A stretch of DNA of 27,832 nucleotides from a virus, in IMG/VR virus record IMGVR_UViG_3300037485_000601, positions 1 to 27,832 of that record, one strand, 5' to 3'. This document shows positions 5,247-27,565 of this stretch, one piece after another (position 1 is the stretch's first letter; every line of letters starts with the position of its first letter). A program made the position numbers and the translations under genes. The notes beneath the pieces are model-generated. The model was not told the origin of the DNA and did no database searches. It saw nothing but the letters and a program-made list of their open reading frames with translations.

Positions 5247-6404
5247 TTATACTAATGTTGGAGTTACTGGTTTATCATCTACTGTTGGATTTTCTTTAAC
5301 ATCACCAGTTAAGAATAGACTTAATGGTTTAATATCAAATGTTGTAGGTTTTTCAAACTTCAATGACATAAGTTTATTGAACACAGGAAGGATTTCGTTT
5401 TGATATGGCATAATAACCATCTTACGGAAATACTCTGAATGTTCTGTAATTTCATTTGCCCCACCCAATTTACCTGATGTGGCAATACCGAATAATTCGG
5501 CTGATGATACTCTATGTGCTGACAAAATTGAACGAGTTATGTCGTCTGTGATTTGGGCATAATAAGTATCGTTATCGTTTCTTTGAATTTGTGTAATTTC
5601 AGGTGATTGTTCCTTTGATTCGTTGAATGAGATGATTGCTTGACCTGCGTTGTCTGTACCACCATATTGTGATTCCAACGCTCTTGTAATGGTTAACATT
5701 TCTTCTTCACCAGGTATACCATTGTTGTAATTTATCCACAAACTTGGCATCATACCTTTTCTAAGGTTATTCATATAGAAGTTTTTAATTTCTATATCGG
5801 TTTCCATTGACCTTTGTCCTGCTGACCAATCAGGTACAGGATAATATGACATGGACGGCATGTATGTTTTGAAATAATAAATCTGATTTGGGTCCTTTTC
5901 TGCTTGACTAAACGCCTTTATTTCAATTGGTGGGAATTTTCTTACATTCTTCCAATCAGGAGAATAGTAATAACAATCAATTTTATCTGTCTCAGGGTTT
6001 ATTTTACCACTTCTAATTCTACTAAAATCTAAATGATAAATCTCAGCAATTGATTTTCTATCCTTTGACCATATTACATTTAACGCAAATCCACCAAACA
6101 TCATCATATCCAATACACATTTCTTCATTACATCAGTAACGTTCTCATTTGGATTAATTAAGTTTACTGTGGCCATAGGGTTGTTTAATGATACAATACC
6201 ATCACCCATGATTTGATTTACCTTTGAAGTTACCACCGCCTTATGAATGGCGCAATTGTCATATAACCCAATAAAATATTGAGGTAATAAATTGTTCTCA
6301 CCATAATAAACCCATGGACTACGTTGTAGTACCTCAGCAAATATCGGAATACTTGCCGCCTCAAAGTTTATCTTTTTAAATTCAGTTTTTTTAATTTCAC
6401 TCAT
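5247..6404 (-). CDS. Phage portal protein
   Basis: The 385-residue protein has the usual portal pattern. The N-terminal part reads FAEVLQRSPWVYYGENNLLP and YFIGLYDNCAIHKAVVTSKV; a clip/wing region reads KCVLDMMMFGGFALNVIW; the C-terminal helical region includes DDITRSILSAHRVSSAELFG. Portals form the dodecameric ring through which DNA enters and leaves the capsid and onto which the adaptor docks. It is short next to most siphovirus portals (usually over 400 residues), but nothing looks broken. The downstream gene is the connector-like protein, 1 nt away; upstream lies a small beta-rich virion-type gene. Position and motifs agree, although it lies at the 3' end of the structural operon instead of the 5' end. 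Confidence 0.85.
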   Translation of the reverse strand: MSEIKKTEFKKINFEAASIPIFAEVLQRSPWVYYGENNLLPQYFIGLYDNCAIHKAVVTSKVNQIMGDGIVSLNNPMATVNLINPNENVTDVMKKCVLDMMMFGGFALNVIWSKDRKSIAEIYHLDFSRIRSGKINPETDKIDCYYYSPDWKNVRKFPPIEIKAFSQAEKDPNQIYYFKTYMPSMSYYPVPDWSAGQRSMETDIEIKNFYMNNLRKGMMPSLWINYNNGIPGEEEMLTITRALESQYGGTDNAGQAIISFNESKEQSPEITQIQRNDNDTYYAQITDDITRSILSAHRVSSAELFGIATSGKLGGANEITEHSEYFRKMVIMPYQNEILPVFNKLMSLKFEKPTTFDIKPLSLFLTGDVKENPTVDDKPVTPTLV

Positions 6405-6405
6405 A

Positions 6406-6780
6406 TTAATCGTCTATATATATAAAGTTTTCGTTTTCCTCGTTAGGAGAAATGTATTGTGTAAATGGATTTGACTCTTGAGTTCCTTCCAATACGACCA
6501 TTCCATTGAAAACCTTGCTGTTATTATCACCATCACCGTATATGTTCAACACATACTGACCCAAATAGTTTAGGTCATTAGTTGCTAAATTTAAATAAAT
6601 TTCACAATACCTAATGTTAGAAAAATACTGCGCAGGATTAGATAAATTAACTGTATAAACCTTAGATTCTTTACTCATTACATGTGTAAAATCCAAAGTA
6701 TAAGTAGAAAATGTATCCCTACTATTATTGTTTATGTTTAGAACTAGTGTGTTCTGTTGTGCTTTTTGTAAGTATAACAT
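6406..6780 (-). CDS. Small beta-rich virion-associated protein (124 aa)
   Basis: The 124-residue product starts MLYLQKAQQNTLVLNINNN and is predicted nearly all beta (YTLDFTHVMSKESKVYTVNL and YLGQYVLNIYGDGDNN), ending in an acidic tail (ENENFIYIDD). Proteins of this kind occur repeatedly beside structural genes in Bacteroidota phages. I cannot name the function; a capsid decoration, neck or fibre-attachment role is possible. It is preceded by a terminator (6832-6855) and then by a leader motif (6786-6808) nearly identical to one before the gene at 27285, so it may begin a separate transcription unit carrying the portal and connector genes. Confidence 0.65.
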   Translation of the reverse strand: MLYLQKAQQNTLVLNINNNSRDTFSTYTLDFTHVMSKESKVYTVNLSNPAQYFSNIRYCEIYLNLATNDLNYLGQYVLNIYGDGDNNSKVFNGMVVLEGTQESNPFTQYISPNEENENFIYIDD

Positions 6781-6785
6781 AGTAA

Positions 6786-6808
6786 TCTCTCAATATTAAA
6801 TATAAAAA
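6786..6808 (-). promoter_or_regulatory. Repeated leader motif, copy 1
   Basis: Plus-strand core AATATTAAATATAAAAA with TCTCTC next to it, directly upstream of the minus-strand gene starting at 6780. It matches the copy at 27288-27310 at 22 of 23 positions. On the minus strand it contains TATATTTA, a near match to the host -7 element. It follows a strong terminator, which favours a promoter over a plain ribosome-binding leader. Confidence 0.5.
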
Positions 6809-6831
6809 AAGTTAATTTGAATTGGTAGAAT

Positions 6832-6855
6832 AAAAAAAAGGGGCCAGATGGCCCC
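6832..6855 (-). terminator. Intrinsic terminator after the tube-like gene
   Basis: A perfect GGGGCC-loop-GGCCCC stem with a 4-nt loop (6840-6855) is followed on the minus strand by eight T residues (6839-6832). It lies about 40 nt after the stop of the gene at 6897 and separates the capsid/tube genes from the portal block. Confidence 0.93.
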
Positions 6856-6896
6856 AATTTTGTTAGAGATATAGAAATTCGGTATAAAACCTACTA

Positions 6897-7519: not shown

Positions 7520-8500
7520 TTAAGATAAACCGTTAGTTGCGAAGTATGCTGTTGAACCAAACTTTGCGATGGTTACACCGTAGTTGTAGTTTGCTCTCAA
7601 ACGTAATTCATCAAAATCTTTTGAGTACCAGATTACTAATTTCTCGTGGTCAGACAATAAGTCAAAACCAATTACGATGTACTCACGAGGTCCGATTACT
7701 ACTTGGTTAGAACCGTTCAAACCGATAGTTGGAACAACTTTTACGTTTGTAGAAGGATGAGTTGCCTCTAACATTGAAGTAATATCAGTAGAACCGATAT
7801 AGTTCATGAAGAAGTTTGCTCTTACCAATGCTTGTACATATAAACGGAAGTTACCGTAAGACATGAAAACAACTAAGTCTTCACGACTCATTGCGTTGTC
7901 ATCAAGAACGTTGATTAATTTATCAACCTCTGTGATTGGGTTACCACTTGTACCGTAAGATGCGGATGAACTGAAAGTTGTACCACTTGAAGATGCTACA
8001 CCTGTTTGACCTGATGCGATCAAAGTCTTTAAACCATTGAAACAAGATGAAGTTGTACCAGTTGCTCCAGTACTTGCTTGCCATAATTGTTGCTCAATTC
8101 TTTGTTGAATTTGTTTAACTTTTAAGTCAGCAATTTGTTGTTCAAACGGAACTGTCTCAGAAGTTTGACCTGGTGCCATTAACATTGATTGGTATGTATC
8201 ATACAAATCTTTGTAACATAGTGCCTCGTTGTACTTCTCAGGACAAGTTGTAATGTTTGATTGAGTGAAGGTAGTTGTTGAACCTGTTGGTTGCCATCCA
8301 CAAGTACCATCTTGGAATAACGCAGTTGAGTTTAAAAGGTTCAATGCTTGAGTACCTTTTATACCTAAACGTACGTTTGCGTATTTTGCGGTAGTTCCAC
8401 CGATTAACGCCTTTGAAAGTAATTCACCACCAACTTGGTCAACGTAAGAACCGATAGAGGCTACGTCATAAGCGAATTGTTCTTTTGATAAAATTTTCAT
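7520..8500 (-). CDS. Major capsid protein (HK97-like fold)
   Basis: The 326-residue protein has the length and pattern of Bacteroidota phage capsid proteins. The N-terminal helical stretch reads SKEQFAYDVASIGSYVDQVG. An E-loop/spine region contains VPFEQQIADLKVKQIQQRIE and EQQLWQAS. The A-domain carries DKLINVLDDNAMSREDLVVF and MSYGNFRLYVQALVRANFF. The C-terminal part, with TNVKVVPTIGLNGSNQVVIG and DELRLRANYNYGV, ends the fold. It builds the icosahedral shell. Context supports it: the scaffold-like gene lies 18 nt upstream and the protease gene is just beyond, although a plus-strand gene separates the two. No delta-domain is fused to this chain, in line with a separate scaffold. An unusual Cys cluster (C67, C85, C95) is near the N-terminus. 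Confidence 0.85.
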   Translation of the reverse strand: MKILSKEQFAYDVASIGSYVDQVGGELLSKALIGGTTAKYANVRLGIKGTQALNLLNSTALFQDGTCGWQPTGSTTTFTQSNITTCPEKYNEALCYKDLYDTYQSMLMAPGQTSETVPFEQQIADLKVKQIQQRIEQQLWQASTGATGTTSSCFNGLKTLIASGQTGVASSSGTTFSSSASYGTSGNPITEVDKLINVLDDNAMSREDLVVFMSYGNFRLYVQALVRANFFMNYIGSTDITSMLEATHPSTNVKVVPTIGLNGSNQVVIGPREYIVIGFDLLSDHEKLVIWYSKDFDELRLRANYNYGVTIAKFGSTAYFATNGLS

Positions 8501-8518: not shown

Positions 8519-9268
8519 TTATTTGTTATTTTTTCTTAATTCAGCAATCATATCTAATTTAGATTGAATTGCGTCATCATTATTTGTTGATTTGTTAAAA
8601 TCAGTTTTACCATCAGAGATTTTTTTACCTGCTGGTTCTTTTTTAAATGCGTTAAACTCATTTTGTAATGAATTATAACTTTCTTCCATGTCAGACATTT
8701 TTTGTCCAACCCTTTTAACGAAGTCTTGTAACATTTCCATAATTTCTTTTTCCATAGAAACTTCAGGTGCTTTTACTTCAACCTCTACTTCAGGTGATTT
8801 ACCTTCTTCAAGGTCATCTACCATTTCTTCAACTTTTGCGATAATACCGTCTTTGGTTTCAATTTTACTTCCGTCCTCAAGTTCATGTACTCCATCTGGT
8901 GCTGGAACTTCAGCATCACCTTGAACTACTACAACCTTGGCTCCTTCTACTAAACTATCACCTGAAACTTTTACTACCGTTCCGTCGGCTAACTTTGCGT
9001 CAAGGAAAATCTCTTTTACTGTTTCAATTTTTCCGTCTTTAACTTCTATTTCAAAGTTTTCAACTAGTCTGAATGAACCATCTTCTAACGCAACACGCTC
9101 AAACTCCTCATTAATCTTGGTAATTTCCTCACCTTCAACTAAAGATTTTGTTTCAACTATTGTATTATCTTCCAATTTGAAAGATTTTAAAGTAGGTTGT
9201 TCAGCCATAAATCCAAATTGAACCATTAATTTTTTAATCTCTTGAATGGCATTTTTAGAATTTGACAT
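8519..9268 (-). CDS. Scaffold-like protein with duplicated beta domain
   Basis: The 249-residue acidic protein has two copies of a beta-hairpin module of about 60 residues (28-86 and 89-148). Each holds a K-L-x-D-x-T/G strand, SLVEG, LEDGS and a final KDG-I-x-x-V-x-E. After an acidic linker (150-170), residues 172-212 form a coiled coil (MEKEIMEMLQDFVKRVG), and the tail (residues 226-249) ends in a basic LRKNNK. An acidic, helical protein directly before the capsid gene fits a scaffold or capsid-assembly chaperone; the beta modules recall lipoyl-like hairpins and might instead decorate the shell. The upstream spacer (9269-9347) is extremely AT-rich. The leftward half of the palindrome at 9387-9409 could promote this gene. 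Confidence 0.6.
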   Translation of the reverse strand: MSNSKNAIQEIKKLMVQFGFMAEQPTLKSFKLEDNTIVETKSLVEGEEITKINEEFERVALEDGSFRLVENFEIEVKDGKIETVKEIFLDAKLADGTVVKVSGDSLVEGAKVVVVQGDAEVPAPDGVHELEDGSKIETKDGIIAKVEEMVDDLEEGKSPEVEVEVKAPEVSMEKEIMEMLQDFVKRVGQKMSDMEESYNSLQNEFNAFKKEPAGKKISDGKTDFNKSTNNDDAIQSKLDMIAELRKNNK

Positions 9269-9364
9269 AATTTTATTTTGTTTTTATTTTTATTACTCTA
9301 CCTATATATATAAAATCTCATATATATTACCAGATTTATTTTTTTAAATGTGGATAACTTTTTT

Positions 9365-9395
9365 TTGGTGGTTTCAAAAAAAGTACTTATCTTTG
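9365..9395 (+). promoter_or_regulatory. Promoter of the inserted plus-strand gene
   Basis: TTG (9365-9367) and TATCTTTG (9388-9395) are separated by 20 nt. The -7 element matches TAnnTTTG at every fixed base. The predicted start is about 9401, which places the ATG at 9447 after a leader of about 45 nt and rules out a start at 9348. Confidence 0.75.
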
Positions 9396-9409
9396 TGGAA
9401 CAAAGATAA
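9387..9409. promoter_or_regulatory. Palindromic operator over the -7 element
   Basis: TTATCTTTG (9387-9395), a 5-nt spacer, then CAAAGATAA (9401-9409) form a perfect inverted repeat. Each arm contains TATCTTTG, so both strands carry a complete -7 element facing the other. It may be a repressor site covering the promoter, or two overlapping opposed promoters serving the inserted gene and the scaffold/capsid genes. Confidence 0.6.
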
Positions 9410-9446
9410 AGTCGGGGACAGGACAAAATCTGAACACAAAATAGTT

Positions 9447-9881
9447 ATGACATATGATAAACAACTTGAAACCATTTACAATTGGTATTGGGGTAATGTT
9501 ACAAAACTTTATTCCGCTTGGGAAGATTTTTTAGAAGAAAAGTATTATTCTCAGTTAAATGATAATCCTAATTTAAAACCCCCTAAAAGAGAGATTTTCT
9601 TTTTTAGAATGTTTATTGCTACCGTTCTTAATGAAGATGAGGAAGGTAATGATGATATTGAAAATTATACTTGTTTAAGTACGCTTATGTCCTTTCTTCA
9701 AATTGAGGGACAACCTTATATTAAAAAATGTAAAAATTTAAAAAATGAACAAAGAGGTGATATGATTTTTCCTAAACTATTAAAAATGTATTTTCAAAAA
9801 AGACAAAAAATGGGATGGAAAAAATTTGAAAAACATTATCTTACTAAATGGAATGAATTAGGTAGACCTATGGATGAATAA
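9447..9881 (+). CDS. Moron-like protein of unknown function (144 aa)
   Basis: I place the start at the ATG at 9447 (MTYDKQLETIYNWYWGNVTK), because the promoter at 9365-9395 lies inside the longer reading frame that begins at 9348. The product is 144 residues, helical, aromatic-rich (NWYWGNVTKLYSAWEDFL), with a basic C-terminal half (LLKMYFQKRQKMGWKKFE). No signal peptide, membrane segment or family is recognised. The gene has its own promoter, an operator-like palindrome and a terminator (9883-9913), and runs against the virion genes on both sides, between protease and scaffold. This is the classic layout of a moron, a gene often expressed from a prophage and giving superinfection exclusion or another host benefit; that role is inference from layout alone. 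Confidence 0.7.
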   Translation: MTYDKQLETIYNWYWGNVTKLYSAWEDFLEEKYYSQLNDNPNLKPPKREIFFFRMFIATVLNEDEEGNDDIENYTCLSTLMSFLQIEGQPYIKKCKNLKNEQRGDMIFPKLLKMYFQKRQKMGWKKFEKHYLTKWNELGRPMDE

Positions 9882-9882
9882 C

Positions 9883-9913
9883 AATAAACCCCTCTTATGA
9901 GGGGTTTATTTTT
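9883..9913. terminator. Bidirectional terminator after the moron-like gene
   Basis: AATAAACCCCTC (9883-9894) pairs perfectly over 12 bp with GAGGGGTTTATT (9899-9910) around TTAT, followed by TTT on the plus strand. It starts 2 nt after the plus-strand stop and reaches the last codon of the minus-strand protease gene, so one hairpin serves both converging genes. Confidence 0.92.
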
Positions 9914-11441
9914 AATCTTCAATGTTTTTTAATATTTCACTTACTTTATATAGGAACATTTCTTCTTTGGTAAACGCTTTAACTTCTTCAAAATAACCTG
10001 ATACCGAGAATCCATTTAAACCACCATTTTTAATTTTATCCCATACTTGGTCGTTCTTAATTTTCATGGATACAAACCACGTACCCACTGGTGTCGATTC
10101 ATACCCATATTTTGATGATTTATCCTGTTCATTTTCCTTAATCCATGACTCAATTACATATACATCTTTAACCGCTTTACCGTTATGATTTTCATCATTA
10201 TTGTCGATGTACTTGTTTCTCATGTATTTCTCAGCAATCATCTTAATTGTTTCAGCGCTGAAGAACACATAATAAGGATTACCCATTGAGTCTTTTCTGA
10301 ATATCTTTAAGTCAGGAACCATTGCTGGTCCGACAATAATTCTTTTCTCTTCGTTCTCAACTTGGAAATGTTGTTTGGACATCTTCTCCCTCTCAATTGA
10401 ATTAATCTTTGACTCAGCCCAAGATAATGCTGACTTACCACCCCAACTATCGTACATCAATTTACCACAACCATCACCATATCCTTTTGAACTTTCTAAA
10501 TCTACTTCATGTCTTGATAGATATGAGTACATGCGTTTGATTGTATCTTCTGAAATTGGATTACCTTGAGCAAGGTCGTTTGCTCTTTGTTTACCCACGG
10601 CGGTCCCACAATCTCCCCATCCATTTTCCTCAACATATTTCAATACCGCCTTTGCGTTATTCTTAACACTATCAGGATAATCTGAATAACTATCAAACAT
10701 TGTTGGTTTAACTAATGATTTGGATATTGTATCACCCGATACTTCATCAACATATGATGGTAATGGATTTATATATTCAAACTGATTTGTCTTATTGAAT
10801 GATGGCCACTCAGGTACTCTTGTATCTGGTTGAGGATATCCTAATACATTTGTATTTAACCCTGTATCAACTCTACCTTTTCTATCTGATGATTTGATGT
10901 TAATATCTGTACCTCTTCTATATGTGATTTTAGACCACAAATGACGACAGTTATATCCACCTCTCCATACCATTGCTGGTGAACCTTCATCGTTTGTAAT
11001 AGTCTCTATATCCTCAATACGGAATACCCAGTTCTTTACCACTAAGTCTCTACAAAAATCTCTTGTAGTTTCTTTAATAGGAGAACCTGGTGCTTCAGGA
11101 TTTAAGATATACTTGTATCTAATTAGGTATTGGTCAGTATCTTCAAATGATGGTGCGTTTGGGTTTGCGTCAATAAAGTTTTCCTTACCGTTATATTCGG
11201 TCTTATAAACTTCCCAACCATCGTTTAATAGTTCTTCTTCGTTCTGTCCTTTGTCTAAGAACTTTTCCAAATAGACATTATCTTCTCCTTCAGGAATATG
11301 AAACTCCTCAGGTTTAATTTTGTTAAAGAACATCCAATTAATTTCAATTGCTGGTTCGTCAACAAGGGAAATACTATCAATTCCGGATAATTCATCATCT
11401 TCTTCTATTTTAAGTTCAAAAACTTTGTCTTTTCTTATCAT
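9912..11441 (-). CDS. XkdF-type prohead protease with a large inserted region
   Basis: The 509-residue protein begins with GIDSISLVDEPAIEINW (20-36) and ends (residues 355-492) with the rest of an XkdF-like domain. The latter includes IVGPAMVPDLKIFRKD, YYVFFSAETIKMIAEKY, the NDENHNG motif with H419, VIESW with S432, and TPVGTWFVSMKI. In the XkdF family as I know it these two parts are nearly adjacent; here about 310 residues separate them. The insert holds a MuF-like segment (TRDFCRDLV at 126-134, GGYNCRHLW at 161-169) and a second module (DYPDSVKNNAKAVLKYV, NGWGDCGTAVGKQRAND, GYGDGCGKLMYDSWGG; about 250-350). The protease would trim scaffold and capsid inside the prohead. The start lies after an AT-rich leader that resembles the repeated leader motif. 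Confidence 0.75.
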   Translation of the reverse strand: MIRKDKVFELKIEEDDELSGIDSISLVDEPAIEINWMFFNKIKPEEFHIPEGEDNVYLEKFLDKGQNEEELLNDGWEVYKTEYNGKENFIDANPNAPSFEDTDQYLIRYKYILNPEAPGSPIKETTRDFCRDLVVKNWVFRIEDIETITNDEGSPAMVWRGGYNCRHLWSKITYRRGTDINIKSSDRKGRVDTGLNTNVLGYPQPDTRVPEWPSFNKTNQFEYINPLPSYVDEVSGDTISKSLVKPTMFDSYSDYPDSVKNNAKAVLKYVEENGWGDCGTAVGKQRANDLAQGNPISEDTIKRMYSYLSRHEVDLESSKGYGDGCGKLMYDSWGGKSALSWAESKINSIEREKMSKQHFQVENEEKRIIVGPAMVPDLKIFRKDSMGNPYYVFFSAETIKMIAEKYMRNKYIDNNDENHNGKAVKDVYVIESWIKENEQDKSSKYGYESTPVGTWFVSMKIKNDQVWDKIKNGGLNGFSVSGYFEEVKAFTKEEMFLYKVSEILKNIED

Positions 11442-14409: not shown

Positions 14410-15414
14410 TTAACAAACTCCTACTGATGTTACAGTTGGGAATCCTGTATAAGTTAATGTTCCGTCTTTAACACATCCTGTATATCCTGATGAGTATGCT
14501 CCGATTGTTCCACCTACAGAACTATTATTACAATCTAAACCACCCCAATAAACATCATATCCATTTGAAGTATTATTAATAAACCATTCTGTTGACTCAC
14601 AATATCCTGGTGTTGGTGATGGCGTTGGAGTTGGAGTTGGTGGTAAACCACTACATGTTGTTCCACAATTGGTTATTGTAAAGTTTGCTATGTCTGCAAA
14701 TGGGAAACCAGGTGTAATTGAACTACATAATACACATTCTGTTATAGTATAAGTTCCTGTTGAGGATACGAATACATAATAATCATCACCATTTGTTTGA
14801 CTATCAAATTTAATCCAACCAGGATCGGTTACGTTTAATGTTGCTCCACTTTGGTAAAGTGATGGTGTTGGTGTAGGGGTTGGTGGTAATGGGGTTGGTG
14901 TTGGAGTAACTGGTGTTGGTGTTGGAGTTACAGGTGGTACAATAGTACTTATTACAATATTTTGACATACGGGATATACTGATCTTTTTCCTATAAATCT
15001 AACTTCAAAATAATATGTACCATTAGTAAATTGGGATAAACCAAAGTCTGATGGTACTACCGGAATGGATCCTGTTCCTGAAAAAGATGTTGAACCTGTT
15101 GATGCGCTACTAGTTGAATATATCGTTCTCCATGGTTTAAAATATTCTTGGCCTGCCGCCATCATATGAACTGTATATATAGATACATTACCACTTTCTC
15201 TTAAGAATATTTCAGCGTTATTTTTTGACCATGTGTATGATAAACTAAATGTTAATGCTGAATAACTAACTGTGGTTGCGCTTAAACTAACTACCGTTCC
15301 ACTTACACTATTTTCATTAATATCATGAATAATATCTGTGTCGTATTCCGTTAAATCGTAGTTTGGATAAACGAAGTTTTGATTATCAATCTGTTTTATA
15401 TACTTTCTTCCCAT
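14410..15414 (-). CDS. Pro-Thr-linked, Cys-containing virion surface protein (334 aa)
   Basis: The protein has a beta-rich N-terminal domain (about 1-158), a Pro-Thr linker (160-184, PTPTPVTPTPTP and similar), a middle module of about 70 residues with C227, C230, C250 and C254, a second short linker (258-269), and a last module (271-334) with C271, C294, C314 and C334. The paired Cys suggest disulfide-stabilised or metal-binding beta modules; their specificity is unknown. No signal peptide is present, in line with a virion protein assembled inside the cell. The N-terminus MGRKYIKQ resembles that of the small neighbour at 15419. It lies between the tape measure and another Pro-Thr-linked protein, so a tail-tip or fibre component that meets the host surface is likely. 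Confidence 0.65.
   Translation of the reverse strand: MGRKYIKQIDNQNFVYPNYDLTEYDTDIIHDINENSVSGTVVSLSATTVSYSALTFSLSYTWSKNNAEIFLRESGNVSIYTVHMMAAGQEYFKPWRTIYSTSSASTGSTSFSGTGSIPVVPSDFGLSQFTNGTYYFEVRFIGKRSVYPVCQNIVISTIVPPVTPTPTPVTPTPTPLPPTPTPTPSLYQSGATLNVTDPGWIKFDSQTNGDDYYVFVSSTGTYTITECVLCSSITPGFPFADIANFTITNCGTTCSGLPPTPTPTPSPTPGYCESTEWFINNTSNGYDVYWGGLDCNNSSVGGTIGAYSSGYTGCVKDGTLTYTGFPTVTSVGVC
14863..14937 (-). repeat. Pro-Thr linker repeat in the 334-aa protein
   Basis: About 25 codons alternate Pro and Thr, from units close to GGTGTTGGAGTT on the plus strand. A shorter copy lies at 14608-14643. The same units occur in two neighbouring genes. Confidence 0.85.
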
Positions 15415-15418
15415 ATTA

Positions 15419-15670
15419 TTAAATTGTGTTTCCGGTTAAAGATGAATATTCGTTATCCCAAGCCTCAACTATGTTATTAATTTCTCTACTATTAAATATA
15501 AGATTGTTGGTCATTGTATTGTGAAATTCAGGTGTTTCACCTATCCAACTAATAATAAATAATGATTTATCAAAGTTGTATCTTAATGTTTCTTCTGAAT
15601 CCTGTAGGATTTGTGTAAAATCTACTTTATTTAATTCTGAAGTTTGTTGTATTGTATATTTTCTTTCCAT
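15419..15670 (-). CDS. Small virion-operon protein (83 aa)
   Basis: The 83-residue product begins [20 protein letters not shown] and has an aromatic middle (TLRYNFDKSLFIISWIGETP). No domain is recognised. Its start overlaps the stop of the LamG-type gene by one base (TAATG), so it is translationally coupled to it, and it is followed after 4 nt by the 334-residue Pro-Thr protein, whose N-terminus (MGRKYIKQ) is similar. It may be a small assembly factor or adaptor for these surface proteins; this rests on position only. Confidence 0.6.
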   Translation of the reverse strand: MERKYTIQQTSELNKVDFTQILQDSEETLRYNFDKSLFIISWIGETPEFHNTMTNNLIFNSREINNIVEAWDNEYSSLTGNTI

Positions 15671-17418
15671 TATGAATATCTATATGTTGTGTAATATGTG
15701 TACAAATCACTTATTTGTGTTGAGTTTAATAGGGTATTATATGCTTGGATATTGTATAATCTACCATCTAAGAAATTAACACCGTCAGAAGAACCCAATT
15801 GAATAAATCTATTAGTTGGTTGTAGAACATTAACATTAGTTAATGATGATACTAATGTTTGATTTAATGTACCATTCAAATAAATCTTTGTAGTTTTAGT
15901 AGATGCCTCCCAAGTAACTGTTAAATTATATGTTGTACCTGTATTAATTGTTACCGCAGATAATGATGTTACTAAATCTTGATTTATGGTATTTCTTATT
16001 TGTCCGTCTAATACTCCTGCGTTAATCTGCCATACCCATATATAATCAGGATTTAACCAAAAATTAAATAGTCTTTGAACACCTGTTGATTTATTTGTGT
16101 TAAACCACATACTCCAAGTAAATGTAGAACCAACAGTAATTGTTGGAGTACTAGTTACATTCATATAATCATTAACACCATCAAACGCAAAATAACCACC
16201 ATTTGAACTACTAAATGTAGGACCAAATATAAATCCTATTGGTGCGGTTGTATAACCTGACCAATTTGATATATCATTCCAATTACCACCTGAATAAGAT
16301 GTTGAGTTACCAGCATCTAATTGTAATATATTACCAGCAGGTATTGGTGGTGTAGGAGTAGGCGTTGGAGTAGGTGTTGGTGTTGCTGTTGGCGTAGGAC
16401 TCGGAGTTGGAGTTGCTGTTGGCGTAGGTGTGGCAGTTGGTGTTGGTGTAGGAGTAGGAGTACTTGTTGGTGTAGGAGTAGGAGTACTTGTTGGTGTAGG
16501 GGTAGGAGTACCTGTAGGAGTAGGCGTGGGGGTTGGTGTTCCTGTTGGTGTAGGAGTTGGGACAGGTGGATTTAATCTATCAATTATCAATTCATTTGAA
16601 ATAACAAATGTTGGTGTAATAATTTCACAATAAGTTAAAAATCTTAAATATATATAACGTTCAGATGCGTCATAAACAGGTCCAAAAAAATCACTAAAAA
16701 CAAAAGTTTGTTGTGGTGGTAAATTTTGTGGCATAACATCTAACCACATTCCACTATTTTGATTCCTGTATTGACCAAAAACACTCATACTACCACTTGG
16801 AGGAGTAAATCCACTATAAACATTGGCCCAATAAGGTCCTAAATCCATGTCAACAGATATATCTGAATTTACATATCTACCAGAATTATAAGTAACATTT
16901 GTTGTAATTAAATTACTAACCGTTAAAGTAGGACAAGGTGGTGCTGTTGGTGTAGGAGTAGGAGTAGGTGTTCCTGTTGGAGTTGGTGTTGGTGTGGCCG
17001 TCGGTGTTGGAGTAGGAATAGAAATTTCATTACTAACTACATATTCAAAATTATAACTATTTGAATTACCTGTAACCGTAAAAGTTACACCTGTTGTAGA
17101 ACCAGAAGTTACATAACTTTGTTTTATACCCATGTCACCATTCTCATCATCACGAGTATAATCCAATCTGTTTACAGTTAGATATTCGTTTGAATCAAAA
17201 GTTCTTGCTACACTAACGGTATCACCAATATTTAAAAATGTTGAATATAGATTATCAATATTTGTAAATTGTCTTTTTGTTATACGATTATTTTTTATTA
17301 CTTGTATATAAGGTGAACCAAAATCATATGGTAATTCATTGAACGTAACTATTAATGAACCAGAACTTAATTGTGGTTGTGTTATTCCCGATAATTGTAT
17401 AATGTCTCTTTGTGGCAT
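15670..17418 (-). CDS. Tail adhesin with Pro-Thr linkers and a LamG-like domain
   Basis: The 582-residue protein has four parts. Residues 1-134 are a beta-rich domain probably used to attach to the virion ([20 protein letters not shown]). A linker of 27 residues (135-161) follows. A second beta domain (162-283) has [21 protein letters not shown] long Pro-Thr linker (284-360) leads to a C-terminal concanavalin/LamG-like domain (361-582) with [43 protein letters not shown] and [20 protein letters not shown], the standard strand order of LamG_3-type sugar-binding modules. The likely role is binding host surface glycans. The linkers probably set reach and flexibility. The domain call is confident; the ligand is unknown. 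Confidence 0.8.
16339..16569 (-). repeat. Long Pro-Thr linker repeat in the LamG-type gene
   Basis: About 77 codons of Pro-Thr with occasional Gly, Ala and Ser at regular places, made of degenerate GGTGTTGGAGTA-like hexamer units on the plus strand. A shorter copy is at 16936-17016. Such DNA can gain and lose units and can recombine with the copies at 14863 and 18433. Confidence 0.9.
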
Positions 17419-17432
17419 AATTTATTAATTTT

Positions 17433-20400
17433 TTATCTACCTATTACTACCCAACGTGGAATACAAGTTTGTGTTATTTCTGTAAAACTACTTGAACCAA
17501 AATTTTGATTCAACCATAATTTATAATCGTCACTAGTTGCTGCCATAATTCTACCATCACTACCAACATCACCTCCACTAAAGTTATAAGATGCGCCAGA
17601 TTCAACTAAGGTCCATGAAACACCATAATTATTTGATACCCATATATTACCAGATGGTGCTCCAAATGCGGTAGAACTTGTAACCATCATATATTGACCA
17701 TCATCTGACATATTACAACTTGTTAATGATAATCCCACCATTGATGGAATTAGAGTAAATGTTGTACCTGAATTTGATGATATATAAACAGATTGATCCT
17801 CTACAAAATTAAGACCTGAGTTAACACTTTTTGCTGCCAATATATATTTTGTATCATCAGACATTACTGCGTCATACCAATAACCTTCACCACCACCTGT
17901 TATGTTTTGAACTGATGAACCTGATGACATACATATTTTAAGATAATCACTTATACCTTCACCAAAATTACTATTATAAACAAATAACATTGGGAATCCA
18001 GTTGATGTTACATAATTCCTACCAATTATTCTATTACTAATACTTGAACCAGATAATAAACTAAATGTATTTCCTGAATTATATGAAATATAGGCTCCAT
18101 TATCAACATTGGCAGAACCTCCACAAATTGAAAGAATTTGTCCGTCTTGTGAACAACTACCTTTAGTAAATCCAACAATTGGTAAATTTGATGTTATAGT
18201 TGACCAAGTTGAACCTATATTTGTTGATCTATATACATTACCAGAAGTAAATGTATATATTAATGTTGCCCCTTGACTTAAATCACCATCAATTAAACGT
18301 TCTGATGCTGATGGTCTTGTTATTGTATTAAATGTATTACCACTATCAATAGATAGTTTTAATATATAACATTCTGAACCTACTGGTGTAGTTTGATATA
18401 AATCTAACAATATATTACTACTACCAATAATTGGTAATGGTGTAGGTGTTGGTGTTACAGTTGGAGTTGGTGTTGGAGATCCTGGTGTTGGAGTTGGAGT
18501 AGGTGTAGGAGTTGTAACCAAACATTGACCGTAGTTAATGGATGAACCAGTTCTTATACCCCATGTTGATGCTGTACTATAAAATTCTGAACAGTTATTA
18601 AATAAGTTTGTACCTTGTCTTGTTGAACCACTATTCATCCAAAAGGTTGGCATGTTATATTGGAACGGTCCGTACTGTTCATTATATATATAATTGTGTA
18701 ATGTGTCATTACTCCAATCTGAACCTGTTGAGTTGTAAGTATCCTCATCAACCTCATACATAGTATAAGGACAATAGACTTCCTCAGAGAAGTTTATTAC
18801 GAATTTGAATGATGATGTAAAACCTGTTGTTTGACCCGTTAAAGACCCCACAGAATGGTCGTAATATACTGACCAACCATAATTAGTGTCCAATATATTT
18901 GGGTTCGTAAAATCGGTCTTAAATTTGAATGTACAGTTATTTAAACCATCACAATAATCATACATGAAGTATCTTGTTGGATACTGATTAACATCTCCGT
19001 TAAATTGAATTAATTCAACATTGGTTAATTCTCTATTTGTAAGATTAAATTGAGATATTTTGGATACAACGAAGTATTGTTCGTTAATCTTAATTGCGTC
19101 TTCAGGTTTTAAATATTTTACATCGGCATAACTTAAATCAAAGTTACCCGTCAATACCCTTGTATTAGGGTTATATAAGTTTGAAATTCTATTTTGATAG
19201 AATGTTGAATATGCGTCGTTTTCTGTATAGGTGTTGAATGTTTCTACACCAATTGTGTCTGTTGGGAACTCTGAGTTAAATAAAAGACATAAACTATCGT
19301 TATTAATCTTATTTTGGTCAGCAAGTCCCATCGGCATGGTATGACTAATCACAGGAATACGGTCAAATTGACTATATGTTGAACCAGATGTATTAGAAAC
19401 ATAGGTCTGATATGTCTTATAGAAGTTGGCTGCGTTGTAGTTTTCACCCACAATATCTAAGAATGGATTGAAACAACCCAACCAAAACATCAATTTAGGT
19501 TTAGTTTTAACACCTTTATACTGCCAACTTACCTTAGAACTAGTTTGATCTGTCTGTTCATTACTTGAACCTACATAATTTATACCTAATGGAAGACTAA
19601 TATTACCATTATTTGTTGTACCAGAGGTATCCCATTTACGAATTATCTCAGGACCGAATATCGTTTCAATCTTTTTATTATTTGATTTGAATGATGTAGG
19701 ACCATAAAAATTATTAATACCATATATACGATTAGTATTTGCGAAGAATTGTTTATTTCCCTCATCATTATCTTGACCATCAGTAAATGTTATCTCACTT
19801 TCAATAAAGTTTAGTGCTGGTTGAACCGTAAATCCTTTGTCATAACTAATCTTATCTGACCAGTTATGAACTGTACCACTACCTATGAAAAAATCATATG
19901 GTTCAATACGAATCACAGATGGTTCATAAGGGTCAGGAACAAGGACTAAATTGAACTTCTTTGCTACGGACGATAGAATGTCTATCTGTTTAATATTGGA
20001 GTCTATAACAAGGTTAAAATCAACATAATCACCATCCACAAAGTTAACACTACTACCAACAGGAACAGGAAGATATTTTAATGAACCAGTTGCTGTTGCT
20101 GTGCTCAAAGATTCACCTGAAACAAATGTTGAACCTAAATCAAAAGTTAAACCTGATGTTCCATAAGGAATTGTTGCGTCAAAAGTATAATACAAATAAT
20201 TCATTCTTATGTTGATGTCATCTGAACAAAAACATGGAATACCTGTACCTAATTTACAAACAACTGCGTATTGTTTATCGTTTAAATCTAAAAAGAAAAC
20301 ATCCACACCTTCTAAAGGTAATGTTTGAATTGAGTTTACCTTGAATGAGAACTTTGTTTCTTCAGAACTAAAATATCCGTACAGATATAAACTCTTCATC

Positions 20401-21227
20401 CATGGTGTATTGAAAAAGTCTGACGATATTTGATAACCATGTGTCTTAAATATCAATTGTAATAATCCCCAAACACTTAATGCTGGTTTTAATTGATTGT
20501 CATAAGGTCCTTGTGTTGGACTATTAATTCTAAATTGTTGAACACCTGCGGAATATGCTGCTCCCAAAGAGGCATAAGAATTAAGGGGACCTGTTGAAGT
20601 ATATAATCTCGTTCTTTCAAGTATTGTTCCACCTGAAAAGTTAACAGTATCACCCGTATATAGATACCCATTATGAACAATCGGGTAGAAATATAGATAT
20701 GGTTTTTCATCATCTATTGCGAAGTTTGTATAGTTGAACGCCTCCGTAACGTTATTTAAACTAAATTCATGATTAAATTCAAAATCAGAATCAGAAAAAT
20801 TCAAATCTTTTAATAAATTATTACCAATCGTACCGTATAAATCTGCTACAGTTGAGAATAAAGTAACGTCATACTCCACTTTTGAATTAAGAATATTAAT
20901 CTTATTCAATTTCATGTATCCTGTGAAATAAGGTTCATCATTTATTAATACCCAACATGGTACACGAGTAGTTGCGTCAAAGTAATATCCAACAGTATCT
21001 ACATTAAAATAACTTTCAAAGAATGTGTTATTTGTTTTAGAACCTGGCAATAAAACTCCTACTGAAAAATCTGAATTTCTTTTTCCTATATCTCCTAACT
21101 CAGCAAAAGATTTATTGATTGATAATGGGATACTACTGTATATATCCAAAGTTTGATATAGGGTTTGACCCGATATTGAACCTGGAACATTTGTCTGTAC
21201 TTTTAATGTTGTTTGTTGTTGTGACAT
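17433..21227 (-). CDS. Tail-tip protein with Pro-Thr linker and BNR/Asp-box propeller
   Basis: In this 1264-residue protein, residues 1 to about 900 look like a baseplate/tail-tip protein of Bacteroidota phages (QTLDIYSSIPLSINKSFAEL and CWVLINDEPYFTGYMKLNKI near the N-terminus, with SLPLGINYVGSSN and TRVLTGNFDLSYADVKYLKP later). A Pro-Thr linker (about 905-932) leads to a C-terminal domain with at least six sialidase/BNR-like repeats. Visible Asp-box-type cores include SIDSGNTF, STNIGSTW, SYNSGNTF, SSNSGTTF and SNNYGVSW. Such repeats form beta-propellers that bind or cut glycans. No sialidase Arg triad can be assigned by eye, so binding is the safer call. A propeller attached by a linker to the tail tip suggests host receptor recognition. 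Confidence 0.75.
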   Translation of the reverse strand: MSQQQTTLKVQTNVPGSISGQTLYQTLDIYSSIPLSINKSFAELGDIGKRNSDFSVGVLLPGSKTNNTFFESYFNVDTVGYYFDATTRVPCWVLINDEPYFTGYMKLNKINILNSKVEYDVTLFSTVADLYGTIGNNLLKDLNFSDSDFEFNHEFSLNNVTEAFNYTNFAIDDEKPYLYFYPIVHNGYLYTGDTVNFSGGTILERTRLYTSTGPLNSYASLGAAYSAGVQQFRINSPTQGPYDNQLKPALSVWGLLQLIFKTHGYQISSDFFNTPWMKSLYLYGYFSSEETKFSFKVNSIQTLPLEGVDVFFLDLNDKQYAVVCKLGTGIPCFCSDDINIRMNYLYYTFDATIPYGTSGLTFDLGSTFVSGESLSTATATGSLKYLPVPVGSSVNFVDGDYVDFNLVIDSNIKQIDILSSVAKKFNLVLVPDPYEPSVIRIEPYDFFIGSGTVHNWSDKISYDKGFTVQPALNFIESEITFTDGQDNDEGNKQFFANTNRIYGINNFYGPTSFKSNNKKIETIFGPEIIRKWDTSGTTNNGNISLPLGINYVGSSNEQTDQTSSKVSWQYKGVKTKPKLMFWLGCFNPFLDIVGENYNAANFYKTYQTYVSNTSGSTYSQFDRIPVISHTMPMGLADQNKINNDSLCLLFNSEFPTDTIGVETFNTYTENDAYSTFYQNRISNLYNPNTRVLTGNFDLSYADVKYLKPEDAIKINEQYFVVSKISQFNLTNRELTNVELIQFNGDVNQYPTRYFMYDYCDGLNNCTFKFKTDFTNPNILDTNYGWSVYYDHSVGSLTGQTTGFTSSFKFVINFSEEVYCPYTMYEVDEDTYNSTGSDWSNDTLHNYIYNEQYGPFQYNMPTFWMNSGSTRQGTNLFNNCSEFYSTASTWGIRTGSSINYGQCLVTTPTPTPTPTPGSPTPTPTVTPTPTPLPIIGSSNILLDLYQTTPVGSECYILKLSIDSGNTFNTITRPSASERLIDGDLSQGATLIYTFTSGNVYRSTNIGSTWSTITSNLPIVGFTKGSCSQDGQILSICGGSANVDNGAYISYNSGNTFSLLSGSSISNRIIGRNYVTSTGFPMLFVYNSNFGEGISDYLKICMSSGSSVQNITGGGEGYWYDAVMSDDTKYILAAKSVNSGLNFVEDQSVYISSNSGTTFTLIPSMVGLSLTSCNMSDDGQYMMVTSSTAFGAPSGNIWVSNNYGVSWTLVESGASYNFSGGDVGSDGRIMAATSDDYKLWLNQNFGSSSFTEITQTCIPRWVVIGR
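18433..18514 (-). repeat. Pro-Thr linker repeat in the tail-tip gene
   Basis: A linker of about 27 codons, [17 protein letters not shown] in part, encoded by the same hexamer family as in the two downstream adhesin genes. It joins the conserved tail part to the propeller. Confidence 0.88.
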
Positions 21228-23332: not shown

Positions 23333-26263
23333 TTATCTTATTTGTTTAACAGTTGTAATAATTGATGGTGTTGCTGGTATGTTTCCACTTGCTGCCTCAT
23401 AATATAGTTGGGCGTGACCATTATTATTTTGAAATACAATTTCATAATAATCATTTGCTGCCGCCTCAACAAAATATTCTACTGTCATAATATTTTCATC
23501 ATTATTTCTTACTACTGTTTTTGTCCCTGTGTCAGCCACATTTGTACCATTCTTTTTTAACCACATATATATGGTGTCCGTTCCACCTAATTCTTTTAAT
23601 TGTGCTGAGAATGTAATTGAATAAACACCTGCGTTTGCTACAGTTAATCTTGAACTTGATGCTAAAGTAACACCATAAGATGTACCTGTATTGTTATATG
23701 TTACACTTCCTGATACACCCGCGCTACCTGATTGTATTTGTGTTGAATAAAAATCACCAACGTTGAACATCTTATGTCCATACATAAATAAGTCATTCGT
23801 TCCTGAACCTGATGCTATTGTTAAATCACCAGTTACATCTAATGAACCTGTTACTGTCAATGGTGAACTACCACTCTTGAACATTATAGGTTGAGTAGAT
23901 TGTGGTAATTGTAAGTTGAAATAATCTTGTAATTCATTAATACTGCCTGGTCCTGAACCTAATATTAAATTATTAGAACCTGTTGTGTACATTGTTGATT
24001 TTGCTAGAATTACGTTGTTAGAACCTGACCTAATACTGATATTACCAATACCCAACATCAAGTTGTTTGAACCACTTCTAAAGTTGTTAAAGTTACCACC
24101 CATTGTGTAGTTGTCAGTACTATCTGATGTAATACCAAACTGTGTATCTGTTTGGTCCATATTACCTTGACCTAAGAAGAAACCTACTTTTCTTGTTGGG
24201 TTAAAGAATAACTGTGCTTGGTTATTTCCATCCGCAATTCTAACTGAACCTGATTCATTTGACATTTTCATTGAACCTGATAATATAACAAATGTACTTG
24301 AGGATGTATTGATTGAACCAGTAATTACTGTATTACCAACTATTTGATGATTTGAACCAGATATTAAAACTGAACCTGTCATTCTAATATTGTTCGTACT
24401 ATCAACGTGTATTGCGTTTCTTCTTGCTCCTGCATTAATACCTGTTCCCACAACAAATATTGCTTGGTTTGCGTCTTCTTGTAACGAACCTGTTGCGTTA
24501 AATCTACCAACATATACCGTTCCACCTTGTGTTGGTGCTGTGGATGATGCTGATACAATTAAGTTCTGACCCAATAATGCGGTTGATACTAAGTGTCCAC
24601 CTGTACCACCACTAAAATCTGAGTTTACAACGTTGGACCTACCTAATATTAAATTAGAATTAAACGTTCTTCTTGTTCCTGAATTAGAACCTGATACAAC
24701 TAATGTATTTGATTCCCCAATAAGTAAGTTTGATGTAACATTAATGTTATTTACTGCTGTTGAAACTGACGATGAATAGTTATTTGTTACCGTTAATCCA
24801 CCACCAATATTACCTTGATAATTTATTGATGAACTATTATGATTTAATGTAACGTGAGGATTGGTATTACCAGCAAAAGTATTAAATGTTATATTTGGAT
24901 TTAATCCTAATGTTGTTGTATTTGCGTTTGATGTAAAACCATTACCACCAACGTAATTTGCTTGAAACGCAACACTACTAGATTGATGATTTATATTTGT
25001 TGCCCCATATATCAAGTTACTGTTTAAAAATGGTGCCTGTAATGAACTTGTTGTAAATTGTAAGTTTAGTCCTGCCTGTAACGCGTTTTGGTTAATTGCT
25101 GGTCTTAATAATGACCCTGTTCCCAATGTTGGTATTGTATTACCAATATTACCACTACCACCGATATACCCATATGTTCCTTGTGTTACTAATGTGTTTC
25201 CTCTAAATCCATTTAATAAAATATTATTTGAACCTGATATAACAACTGAACCTGTTTGTAGTACTGTCACTGGTCCTGCTGTACCACCGAATATTACATT
25301 TGATTGTGATATTGGTGATGAACCTGTTATATTAAATTGAACTGAACCACTTCTATTTGCTTCTGATTGTATTTGAATTAAACCACCATTAACTGTATTA
25401 CCAATTAATGAACCTGATATAACTGTATTACCTAATATTAAACTACCTGTAATATTTTGTGTTGATGTAATTGAACCTGTTGTAATAAGTCCTGTATAAT
25501 CTACCACACCACTTGTTCCTGATGTTCCACTTGTTCCTGAAGAACCATCAACACCTGACGTACCACTGGTTCCTGATGAACCATCTTGTCCACTAGTTCC
25601 TGATGTTCCTGAACTACCAGTTCCTCCACTTGTACCTGACGTACCACTACTACCTGTTCCACCACTCGTACCACTTGTTCCTGATGAACCAGAACTTCCC
25701 GATGTACCACTAGTACCAGATGAACCTGATGACCCACTCGTACCACTACTACCTGAACTTCCTGAGGTTCCACTTGAACCAGAAGAACCTGATGTTCCTG
25801 ATGTACCAGAAGTTCCTGATGAACCTGCTGCTGAAAATACTGACCACCATGCTGGTTGAACAGATGGTTGTTTATTTAAGTTTCCATTTTGAATAGAAAC
25901 ATATGATTGTCCGTTATAAGTTATAACATCATTTATAATATAGGTTGTTGTATCACTCCATGTACCATAATAGTTAAAACCACTACCACTTGAACCTGAT
26001 GTTCCTGAGGTTCCTGAACTACCAGATGAACCTGAGGTCCCTGATGTTCCTGAAGAACCTGATGTACCACCTGATATTGATACTCCATTAACTTTGAAAC
26101 TTCCTGAGATATTAACCTCAGTTAAACTCATTTGTAATGGTGAATTATCTCCGTCACCTGTTTGTACGGTTTGTAGAGTGTTAGTTAAACCATTAGTACT
26201 ATCGGCCATCTTTAAAAGACCTTGAAATGAACTACTAACGTAAAGATTATTTAATTGACCCAT
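23333..26263 (-). CDS. Collagen-like tail fibre with CBM-like and C1q-like domains
   Basis: The 976-residue fibre has an N-terminal virion-binding part (1-64), a first Gly-x-y repeat (65-94, GTSGSSGTSG), a carbohydrate-binding-module-like unit (96-144: YYGTWSDTTTYIINDVITY, SVQPAWWSVF), and a second, longer Gly-x-y repeat (about 147-253). The triplets are almost all GTS and GSS, with no Pro. A long beta-solenoid-like region follows, with repeats such as GSNNLILG and TGSL. The C-terminal 135 residues look like a C1q/TNF-type jelly roll (NAGVYSITFSAQLKELGG). Collagen-like stems with C1q-like heads form trimers, so this is probably the trimeric receptor-binding fibre. No intramolecular chaperone domain is seen. 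Confidence 0.8.
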   Translation of the reverse strand: MGQLNNLYVSSSFQGLLKMADSTNGLTNTLQTVQTGDGDNSPLQMSLTEVNISGSFKVNGVSISGGTSGSSGTSGTSGSSGSSGTSGTSGSSGSGFNYYGTWSDTTTYIINDVITYNGQSYVSIQNGNLNKQPSVQPAWWSVFSAAGSSGTSGTSGTSGSSGSSGTSGSSGSSGTSGSSGSSGTSGTSGSSGSSGTSGTSGGTGSSGTSGTSGGTGSSGTSGTSGQDGSSGTSGTSGVDGSSGTSGTSGTSGVVDYTGLITTGSITSTQNITGSLILGNTVISGSLIGNTVNGGLIQIQSEANRSGSVQFNITGSSPISQSNVIFGGTAGPVTVLQTGSVVISGSNNILLNGFRGNTLVTQGTYGYIGGSGNIGNTIPTLGTGSLLRPAINQNALQAGLNLQFTTSSLQAPFLNSNLIYGATNINHQSSSVAFQANYVGGNGFTSNANTTTLGLNPNITFNTFAGNTNPHVTLNHNSSSINYQGNIGGGLTVTNNYSSSVSTAVNNINVTSNLLIGESNTLVVSGSNSGTRRTFNSNLILGRSNVVNSDFSGGTGGHLVSTALLGQNLIVSASSTAPTQGGTVYVGRFNATGSLQEDANQAIFVVGTGINAGARRNAIHVDSTNNIRMTGSVLISGSNHQIVGNTVITGSINTSSSTFVILSGSMKMSNESGSVRIADGNNQAQLFFNPTRKVGFFLGQGNMDQTDTQFGITSDSTDNYTMGGNFNNFRSGSNNLMLGIGNISIRSGSNNVILAKSTMYTTGSNNLILGSGPGSINELQDYFNLQLPQSTQPIMFKSGSSPLTVTGSLDVTGDLTIASGSGTNDLFMYGHKMFNVGDFYSTQIQSGSAGVSGSVTYNNTGTSYGVTLASSSRLTVANAGVYSITFSAQLKELGGTDTIYMWLKKNGTNVADTGTKTVVRNNDENIMTVEYFVEAAANDYYEIVFQNNNGHAQLYYEAASGNIPATPSIITTVKQIR
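25503..25825 (-). repeat. Collagen-like Gly-x-y coding repeat
   Basis: Roughly 36 Gly-Thr-Ser / Gly-Ser-Ser triplets encoded by degenerate 9-bp units; a shorter block lies at 25982-26071, on the other side of a CBM-like domain. The repeat DNA can vary in length by slippage or recombination. Confidence 0.9.
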
Positions 26264-26280
26264 TTTATATTAATATTTTT

Positions 26281-27285
26281 TTAAACATTATCCCATTGTT
26301 CTTTTACTTTTCTCCATAACTCATTTACCTCTTCCCATGTTAATGATGGACTGAAGTTGGTTGTTGGAAGAACACATCTATTATAATCAAATTTTTGTTG
26401 AACAGAAATATTAAACGACCAACCAGCAAGAGTAGATTCTGTCTCTTCTAACCATGGATTTAATATTGCGTTCCATTCAACATCGTAATCTGATAAGTAC
26501 GCTTTAGAATAGAAATCCTTACAAATCTCAAGACAATCTGATAAAACCTCAATCTGATTTGATTGATCTTCTTCTATCTTATCACAAACAATAACATCCC
26601 ATGTTATGTGATAATGATTTTCATTTAGTCTTGTTGTATTAGGTATAAAATATATACGAGGATACTCAGGTTCTTTTTTTGTATATCTATCATTTGTTAA
26701 TTGACTACCATCACCAAAACCATAACTTCTTAATTGTTTATGATTCTCGGAGAATTGTTTCCAATCATCTAATATCTGTTTGTAAGATGAGTAAGATTCA
26801 TCTTGTGGGAAACTAAAAGGTTCCATTGGTAAATTACAAGAATTATAATCAAATGGTGCTGACATTTTAAGATGTAATGTCCATCCTCCAAGGATTGTTT
26901 CAAATCTTTCTGTAAATGGATGTACCTCAGGTCCCCAATCCCCTACCACAATCTTACTAAAATCTCCTTGTTGTGCGGTATATGACTGCCAGAATATGGT
27001 CCATATGTCTGAACATATTTCTAATGTATCACTCATGACCTCCTCAAGATTGGATAAATCTTCTTCCACCTTATCCATTATTACAATAGAAAAATTGTAG
27101 TGGATATGGTTCTGATTAAACTCCACATTCTCAGGTATAACATACATTCTTGTATATTTTGGTTCCTGTTTTGTAATGACATCGTTGGTTAATTGCTCAA
27201 AATCACCCACACCAAATGAATTTATTTGTTCATGATGATAGGCTATCTCACCAAAATACGATACTAGTTGTTTATAATTTAACAT
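26281..27285 (-). CDS. Tail-terminator-like protein with two tandem copies of one domain
   Basis: The 334-residue protein is an internal duplication. Copy 1 (about 18-158) has SFGVGDFEQLTND, YTRMYVIPENVEFN, EEVMSDTLEICSDI, LGGWTLHLKM and FDYNSCNLP. Copy 2 (about 185-318) has SYGFGDGSQLTND, YPRIYFIPNTTRLN, IEVLSDCLEICKDF, LAGWSFNISV and FDYNRCVLP. Each copy has the look of a tail-terminator/minor-tail protein of about 150 residues that I know from Bacteroidota phages, normally present once per chain. Two fused copies might give a pseudo-hexamer from three chains. The gene is preceded by the repeated leader motif (27288-27310). Identity as a tail terminator is inference; the duplication is plain in the sequence. 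Confidence 0.65.
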   Translation of the reverse strand: MLNYKQLVSYFGEIAYHHEQINSFGVGDFEQLTNDVITKQEPKYTRMYVIPENVEFNQNHIHYNFSIVIMDKVEEDLSNLEEVMSDTLEICSDIWTIFWQSYTAQQGDFSKIVVGDWGPEVHPFTERFETILGGWTLHLKMSAPFDYNSCNLPMEPFSFPQDESYSSYKQILDDWKQFSENHKQLRSYGFGDGSQLTNDRYTKKEPEYPRIYFIPNTTRLNENHYHITWDVIVCDKIEEDQSNQIEVLSDCLEICKDFYSKAYLSDYDVEWNAILNPWLEETESTLAGWSFNISVQQKFDYNRCVLPTTNFSPSLTWEEVNELWRKVKEQWDNV

Positions 27286-27287
27286 AT

Positions 27288-27310
27288 TCTCTTAATATTA
27301 AATATAAAAA
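27288..27310 (-). promoter_or_regulatory. Repeated leader motif, copy 2
   Basis: Plus-strand core AATATTAAATATAAAAA, matching the copy at 6786-6808 at 22 of 23 positions. It lies 2 nt before the start codon of the duplicated tail gene. A looser copy is at 11442-11459, before the protease gene. Confidence 0.5.
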
Positions 27311-27331
27311 GACCAAGAATAACCGCTGAAA

Positions 27332-27565
27332 TTATGCGAGATATCCGTTGGCCTTCTTTTGTTGTTTTATTTGTTCTTGATCTAAACCTATCAAATAGGT
27401 TAATTGGTTTAACGCTTCAACAATTGTTTTTTCAAGGATTTTATCGTGTTCATTGATTTTGTTATCTGATAATCTATTAAGTACGACGTACCATCCGAAT
27501 CTTTTTTCGAAAGTAATTTCCATACTAGACTCCAATTCTTTACTATCCATTTCGTCATCTCCCAT
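27332..27565 (-). CDS. Downstream reading frame of a probable tail-assembly chaperone pair
   Basis: The frame from 27565 encodes 77 residues. Its C-terminal two thirds (ITFEKRFGWYVVLNRLSD, then EALNQLTYLIGLDQEQIKQQ) look like a genuine helical domain with the GWY-V motif I know from a Bacteroidota phage tail-operon protein. It overlaps the frame at 27409 by 157 bp. Translation could begin at the ATG at 27565, 2 nt after AGGAGGGA, or at Met6; or ribosomes could arrive by -1 frameshifting at the A run in TCGAAAAAAGATTC (about 27502-27515), where the upstream frame reads LSKKDS and this one reads FEKRF. The location before tail genes and the nested frames fit the gpG/gpGT type of chaperone. Confidence 0.6.
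   Translation of the reverse strand: MGDDEMDSKELESSMEITFEKRFGWYVVLNRLSDNKINEHDKILEKTIVEALNQLTYLIGLDQEQIKQQKKANGYLA

Follow-up and report, generated by a model that had tools for sequence, protein, structure and literature searches.

A Self-Contained Accessory-Gene Cassette with a Predicted Host-Read Leader at a Recurrent Site between the Protease and Scaffold Genes of a Phage Family

The junction between the head maturation protease gene and the scaffold-like gene was shown, by comparison across related phages, to be empty in most relatives, to hold different genes where it is filled, mostly behind one leader, and to exchange this cargo between lineages. The gap is regarded with high confidence as a swap hotspot, and the segment carrying the gene at 9447–9881 as a cassette. 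The fuller reading that we favor, with moderate confidence, is that of an accessory-gene cassette, complete in itself and inserted at a recurrent site, equipped with a leader that would be read by the host early in infection and with a product that probably serves host takeover or counter-defense.

The Protease–Scaffold Junction and Its Cargo

The window analyzed takes in all 27,832 bases of an IMG/VR record of an uncultivated virus, and all window coordinates refer to it; L-numbers designate loci of related phages. The open reading frame for a 144-aa protein runs on the + strand from the ATG at 9447 to the stop at 9881; it is the single gene between protease and scaffold and is opposite in strand to the late genes. 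The portal gene (5247–6404), a probable major capsid gene (7520–8500), a scaffold-like gene called by position (8519–9268), and the protease gene (9912–11441; XkdF-type Peptidase_S78_2, E 6.6e-19) are all on the − strand, and the last two form the left and right borders of the hotspot. A sequence-only reading had described a lone opposite-strand gene in the protease–scaffold–capsid block, and its coordinates were right. The gene points toward the protease gene, with which it converges, and away from the scaffold gene, and is thus placed between genes with no reading frame broken. Elsewhere on the − strand, long GSSGTSGTSG repeats occur in the protein of 23333–26263 and PTPTPT repeats in those of 14410–15414, 15670–17418, and 17433–21227. 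Two overlapping reading frames, 27332–27565 and 27409–27801 (−), lie at the record's right end, and each has a counterpart in L206.

Relatives were collected from metagenomic contigs by similarity of the protease, capsid, and scaffold proteins, and duplicates were removed. Among the 97 distinct protease–scaffold junctions obtained, the window counted, 81 are empty (gap of 55–76 nt) and 16 are filled (220–922 nt), so the gene is not universally conserved at this exact junction. The 15 backbones nearest the window, with capsid protein identities of 89.9–94.8%, are empty without exception. Loci added later via the promoter pattern (L198, L203, L208, L210, L218, and L219) were chosen for their leader and stand outside the 16 of 97; with pattern-found loci included, a count biased toward filled sites, 22 of 106 junctions are filled. 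The capsid-protein tree has 102 rows, of which 19 are filled; these include the pattern-found L198, L203, L218, and L219, whose capsid gene is full-length. Occupancy takes 17 changes on it, 14 of which are forced by well-supported branches. The filled junctions are no more clustered on this tree than shuffled labels.

The limits of the insert can be given exactly. Identical 9-bp TTTATTTTT repeats lie at 9335–9343 and 9905–9913, and joining the window flanks at TTTATTTTT yields the exact empty site of L029, gapless across the join. The insert is therefore 570 bp (9344–9913, including the right repeat), with leader, gene, and terminator taken together. L029 and L053, different relatives of one gene block, share a 57-kb contig that is perhaps a joined assembly.

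The filled junctions hold at least 10 unrelated cargo genes, mostly behind one leader. These include the 144-aa protein of the window, a family in L028 and L115, a 96-aa protein in L135, L064, and L208, a gene common to L203 and L219, a 72-aa protein in L017 and L218, a weakly matching pair in L005 and L078 (E ∼0.002), a 34-aa protein in L057 and L104, and genes occurring once each, in L057, L116, and L125. A SprT-like metalloprotease is encoded in L198 (182–589, −; Pfam E 3.1e-10), and a 200-aa protein in L210 resembles it. HNH-type genes, assigned by eye since Pfam gave no HNH match, occupy the junctions of L037 and L079 and have related copies at other places in these phages. The junctions of L064, L104, L116, and L125 are open on one side, these loci stopping near a contig edge. 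The cargo of L135, L064, and L208 is 89–91% identical versus 62–75% for the protease and 61% for the scaffold, and that of L203 and L219 is 84% identical versus 52% for the major capsid protein, 51% for the scaffold, and 76% for the portal. Cargo identity thus exceeds backbone identity (84–91% against 51–76%), which indicates that the cargo moves between lineages.

The gene had been called moron-like on sight. Its absence from the nearest backbones, the repeated filling and emptying of the site, the different cargo behind the same leader, and the movement of cargo with promoter and terminator bear this name out.

Leader, Dyad, and Terminator

The promoter, palindrome, and terminator ascribed to the gene in the sequence-only reading are all found, the promoter being of Bacteroidota type. 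A predicted −33 element, TTTG, is located at 9364–9367 (+) and a predicted −7 element, TATCTTTG (TAnnTTTG class), at 9388–9395 (+); the spacer is N20 in every filled junction having this promoter. The combination TTTG-N20-TATCTTTG matches, at the level of sequence, the consensus for the Bacteroidota primary sigma factor, and the promoter type points to a Bacteroidota-type host. The pattern TTTGG-N19-TAHHTTTG occurs once in the window, against 0.065 expected occurrences in shuffled sequence. E. coli-type promoters were rejected, because the + strand matches at 9431–9458 and 9454–9482 reach or cross the ATG and the region is barely above chance.

A perfect dyad, TTATCTTTGT-GGA-ACAAAGATAA, with 10-bp arms and a 3-nt center, occupies 9387–9409 and spans the −7 box and predicted positions +1 to +10. 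In F. johnsoniae the G of the −7 box sits at −5 (PMC6847099). Application of this rule predicts a start near 9400, which leaves the left dyad arm outside the RNA, and the dyad would accordingly act as DNA. The terminator hairpin at 9883–9910 has a 12-bp stem, is T-rich on its + side, and is common to the convergent protease gene. Dyad and terminator are the sole perfect near-palindromes with arms of at least 10 bp in the 27.8 kb, where 0.35 are expected by chance. The arms match in 11 leader variants, seven with TATC/GATA, four with TAAC/GTTA, and none mismatched; these variants are related, and no probability is attached to the covariation. The description of the palindrome as operator-like therefore stands insofar as the dyad goes beyond chance, but about two-thirds of the promoter instances are without it. 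The palindrome was also considered as a second, − strand promoter and, by reading, set aside: on that strand the −7 consensus is broken in the variants whose right arm is longer, and the spacing to TTTG in the window is 15.

Upstream of the promoter, the 9-mer TGTGGATAA at 9349–9357 (+), the complement of the DnaA-box consensus TTATCCACA, directly precedes the −33 box and has the same place in most such leaders. It may possibly link host DnaA to early phage genes. The DnaA-box-like TGTGGATAA has one orientation upstream of promoters in all instances read. Downstream, a 5′-UTR box, GGGGACAG-N8-CTGAAC, is found at 9414–9435 (+), 11 nt before the ATG. The bipartite box recurs in relatives as GGG[GA]ACAG-N4..8-CTGAAC, where it precedes unrelated genes and ends 9–11 nt short of their ATG. 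The common front end of most filled junctions consists of TGTGGATAA, TTTG-N20-TANNTTTG, in part the UTR box, and the ATG; it is absent from the two HNH-type genes and from a few short inserts at the junction. A scan for the promoter pattern, blind to downstream sequence, returned 37 contigs, with 31 distinct strict instances in the loci examined. Leader-like places number 47 distinct ones down to E ∼1, and the dyad is present in only part of them. A search of known phage records for the leader gave no convincing match. A 24-nt box, GGGGACAGGACAAAATCTGAACA, precedes genes of the more distant phages L137 and L140–L142, where the full leader is absent.

On the scaffold side of the insertion site, an AT-rich conserved element (TGGKAATATATA..TATATTTA-like) precedes the scaffold gene at 9290–9332 (−) and is kept at all junctions, empty and filled. 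It is, from its sequence and position, probably a late promoter. Similar TATATTTAATATTNAGAG stretches precede 6406–6780 (−) and 26281–27285 (−). On the − strand of the window, TATATTTAATATTNAGAG-like stretches are located at 6781–6896, 27286–27331, and 9269–9350 as a candidate phage late promoter motif. Insertion upstream of this element would leave the expression of scaffold and capsid intact.

The Product and Its Relative

A single relative of the window protein was identified, a 141-aa protein in L198 and L206 that is 43–44% identical (BLAST 61/143, E 7e-33). It was located only through the leader pattern; viral contigs, phage records, and genomes searched with the 144-aa protein itself yielded no relative, and an alignment-based rescan gave no further one. 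The relative follows a gene of the w3835-4164 type, outside the capsid block, and the protease–scaffold junction of L198 is itself occupied by the SprT-like gene. In L198 a TTTGG-N19-TAACTTTG promoter stands directly before the relative, ∼50 bases from its ATG and without the DnaA-box-like 9-mer, and a pattern-matched promoter copy with the 9-mer was found by reading ∼140 bases further upstream. The relative is therefore again behind the same promoter type, the full leader not being copied one to one. Differences between the two proteins fall on the three codon positions as 57/39/58 over 140 codons, which fits mild constraint on the protein; with only two versions known, selection on it is weakly documented.

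That the product has no recognizable family, as had been stated earlier, agrees with the searches. The 144-aa protein gave no Pfam match, hence none to a nuclease domain, and no match to a solved fold; the best PHROGs hit is insignificant (E 0.28). Neither the window protein nor its relative has a match in PADLOC-DB at E ≤ 1, and none of the five proteins checked matches a PADLOC-DB defense model. The AlphaFold2 models built from one and from two sequences are helical and have low confidence (pLDDT 62 and 66, pTM 0.51), and their globin-like fold matches (E 3.9–4.9) are meaningless. The protein is cytosolic-looking and predicted to be mostly helical, with no transmembrane stretch (maximum 19-residue hydropathy mean 0.61; GRAVY −0.9). 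Superinfection exclusion proteins are typically membrane proteins.

A search for tyrosine integrases and large serine recombinases found none in 14 family records, 13 of them 32–35 kb and all possibly incomplete, and a close-range search of 84,980 genomes with the capsid gene found no prophage or host. The lack of an integrase leaves no sign of lysogeny, in which classical morons act, and argues for a lytic early-gene role of 9447–9881. Together with the missing family, fold, and defense matches and the lack of a transmembrane stretch, it favors an early intracellular factor over superinfection exclusion. As a guess from the company it keeps, and with low confidence, the product may be an early intracellular factor for host takeover or counter-defense of a lytic phage. 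Defense, anti-defense, or superinfection exclusion by the 144-aa product is not supported so far.

Alternative Readings, Proposed Mechanism, and Related Systems

Morons of lambdoid phages are single genes with their own promoter and terminator, located between core genes, that some close relatives carry and others lack; in the classical case their expression comes from the prophage. The gene at 9447–9881 is like them a single gene with its own predicted promoter and terminator, absent from close relatives, and it differs in that there is no sign of lysogeny. That a temperate phage here carries a classical moron, expressed from the prophage and protecting the lysogen by superinfection exclusion or defense, is improbable. 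The operator-like dyad accompanying this promoter and terminator between late genes and the scattered presence would suit such a role, but the 14 records hold no integrase (other lysogeny modes being possible), the close-range search of 84,980 genomes with the capsid gene found no prophage, and the protein lacks both a transmembrane stretch and a PADLOC match. Somewhat less unlikely is that the inserts are mainly selfish cassettes, with leader, short repeats, and sometimes homing endonucleases making the landing site and many cargos useless to the phage. HNH-type genes do occupy the same gap in L037 and L079, the TTTATTTTT repeats fit simple gain and loss, and occupancy appears random on the tree. 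However, the cargo of the window is not a nuclease by Pfam, reading frames stay intact at 84–91% identity in diverged backbones, and a whole expression signal travels with the gene, for which a selfish landing has no need.

It is very unlikely that an RNA, acting as antisense or leader over the late region, is the active product and the reading frame incidental. The conserved leader with dyad and UTR box and the strand opposite the late genes speak for this reading, but a protein of matching length (141 aa) and ∼44% identity exists at another site, different cargo reading frames follow one leader at a fixed distance to the ATG, and Rfam returned only sub-threshold noise, with no significant match. 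A late virion-associated or assembly gene that merely happens to lie on the opposite strand is hardly credible: the position within the protease–scaffold–capsid block speaks for it, but the gene is missing from the nearest relatives, whose capsid genes are almost the same as that of the window, its promoter is host-type and not the late-type element, and the L198/L206 relative lies outside the capsid block.

In the mechanism proposed for the accessory-gene cassette, the leader would be read by the host primary sigma factor, so that the gene would be made early, before and independently of the late genes. The term early rests on relatives because the early region is mostly missing from the 27.8-kb fragment. 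The inserted gene would run convergent with the protease gene, with a common hairpin terminator, and back-to-back with the predicted late promoter for scaffold and capsid; the position of the junction between two transcription units would explain why insertions are tolerated there. Cassettes may be exchanged via recombination at the common leader, the terminator, or the short flanking repeats. The dyad over the predicted start site would let a regulator turn the gene off, and the product would act inside the cell on a host target.

The P2-like phages and P4-like satellites are described in PMC9122126 as temperate elements with antiviral hotspots carrying known anti-phage systems. The present junction is like the hotspots of that account in being a fixed genomic gap with varying accessory genes, and unlike them in that none of the five proteins checked matches a defense model. 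The closest analogue appears to be the PeSL mobile regulatory cassettes of T4-type phages (Arbiol 2010; Comeau 2014, via PMC4503421), units of a host-like early promoter and stem-loop linked to the swapping of small unknown genes. As far as the second-hand account in PMC4503421 goes, both systems appear to have a small repeated regulatory unit associated with small-gene swapping between related phages, the promoter being the part that recurs here and the dyad accompanying only some of its copies. The cassettes described here differ in belonging to a small unrelated phage family (portal, protease, capsid) with Bacteroidota promoters, and in combining a promoter, a covarying start-site dyad, and a UTR box, with the terminator placed at the opposite end and one swap site in the capsid block. 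They would thus work like PeSL without being a member, the backbone not being T4-type.

By this comparison, the concept of the mobile regulatory cassette, described in T4-type phages, would hold also for a small phage family whose promoter language is different; the swap site here lies inside the capsid gene block. More tentatively, the 9-mer, the exact-N20 host promoter, the start-site dyad, and the fixed-distance UTR box might constitute a portable expression module in Bacteroidota phages, a common front end at several genome sites for swapped early host-takeover or counter-defense genes, with timing set by host DnaA or a phage repressor. The accessory genes of Bacteroidota phages are nearly all uncharacterized, and the leader and the exchange gap provide a handle for finding candidates. 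If the module reading is true, following the leader would be a way to collect the counter-host genes of these phages.
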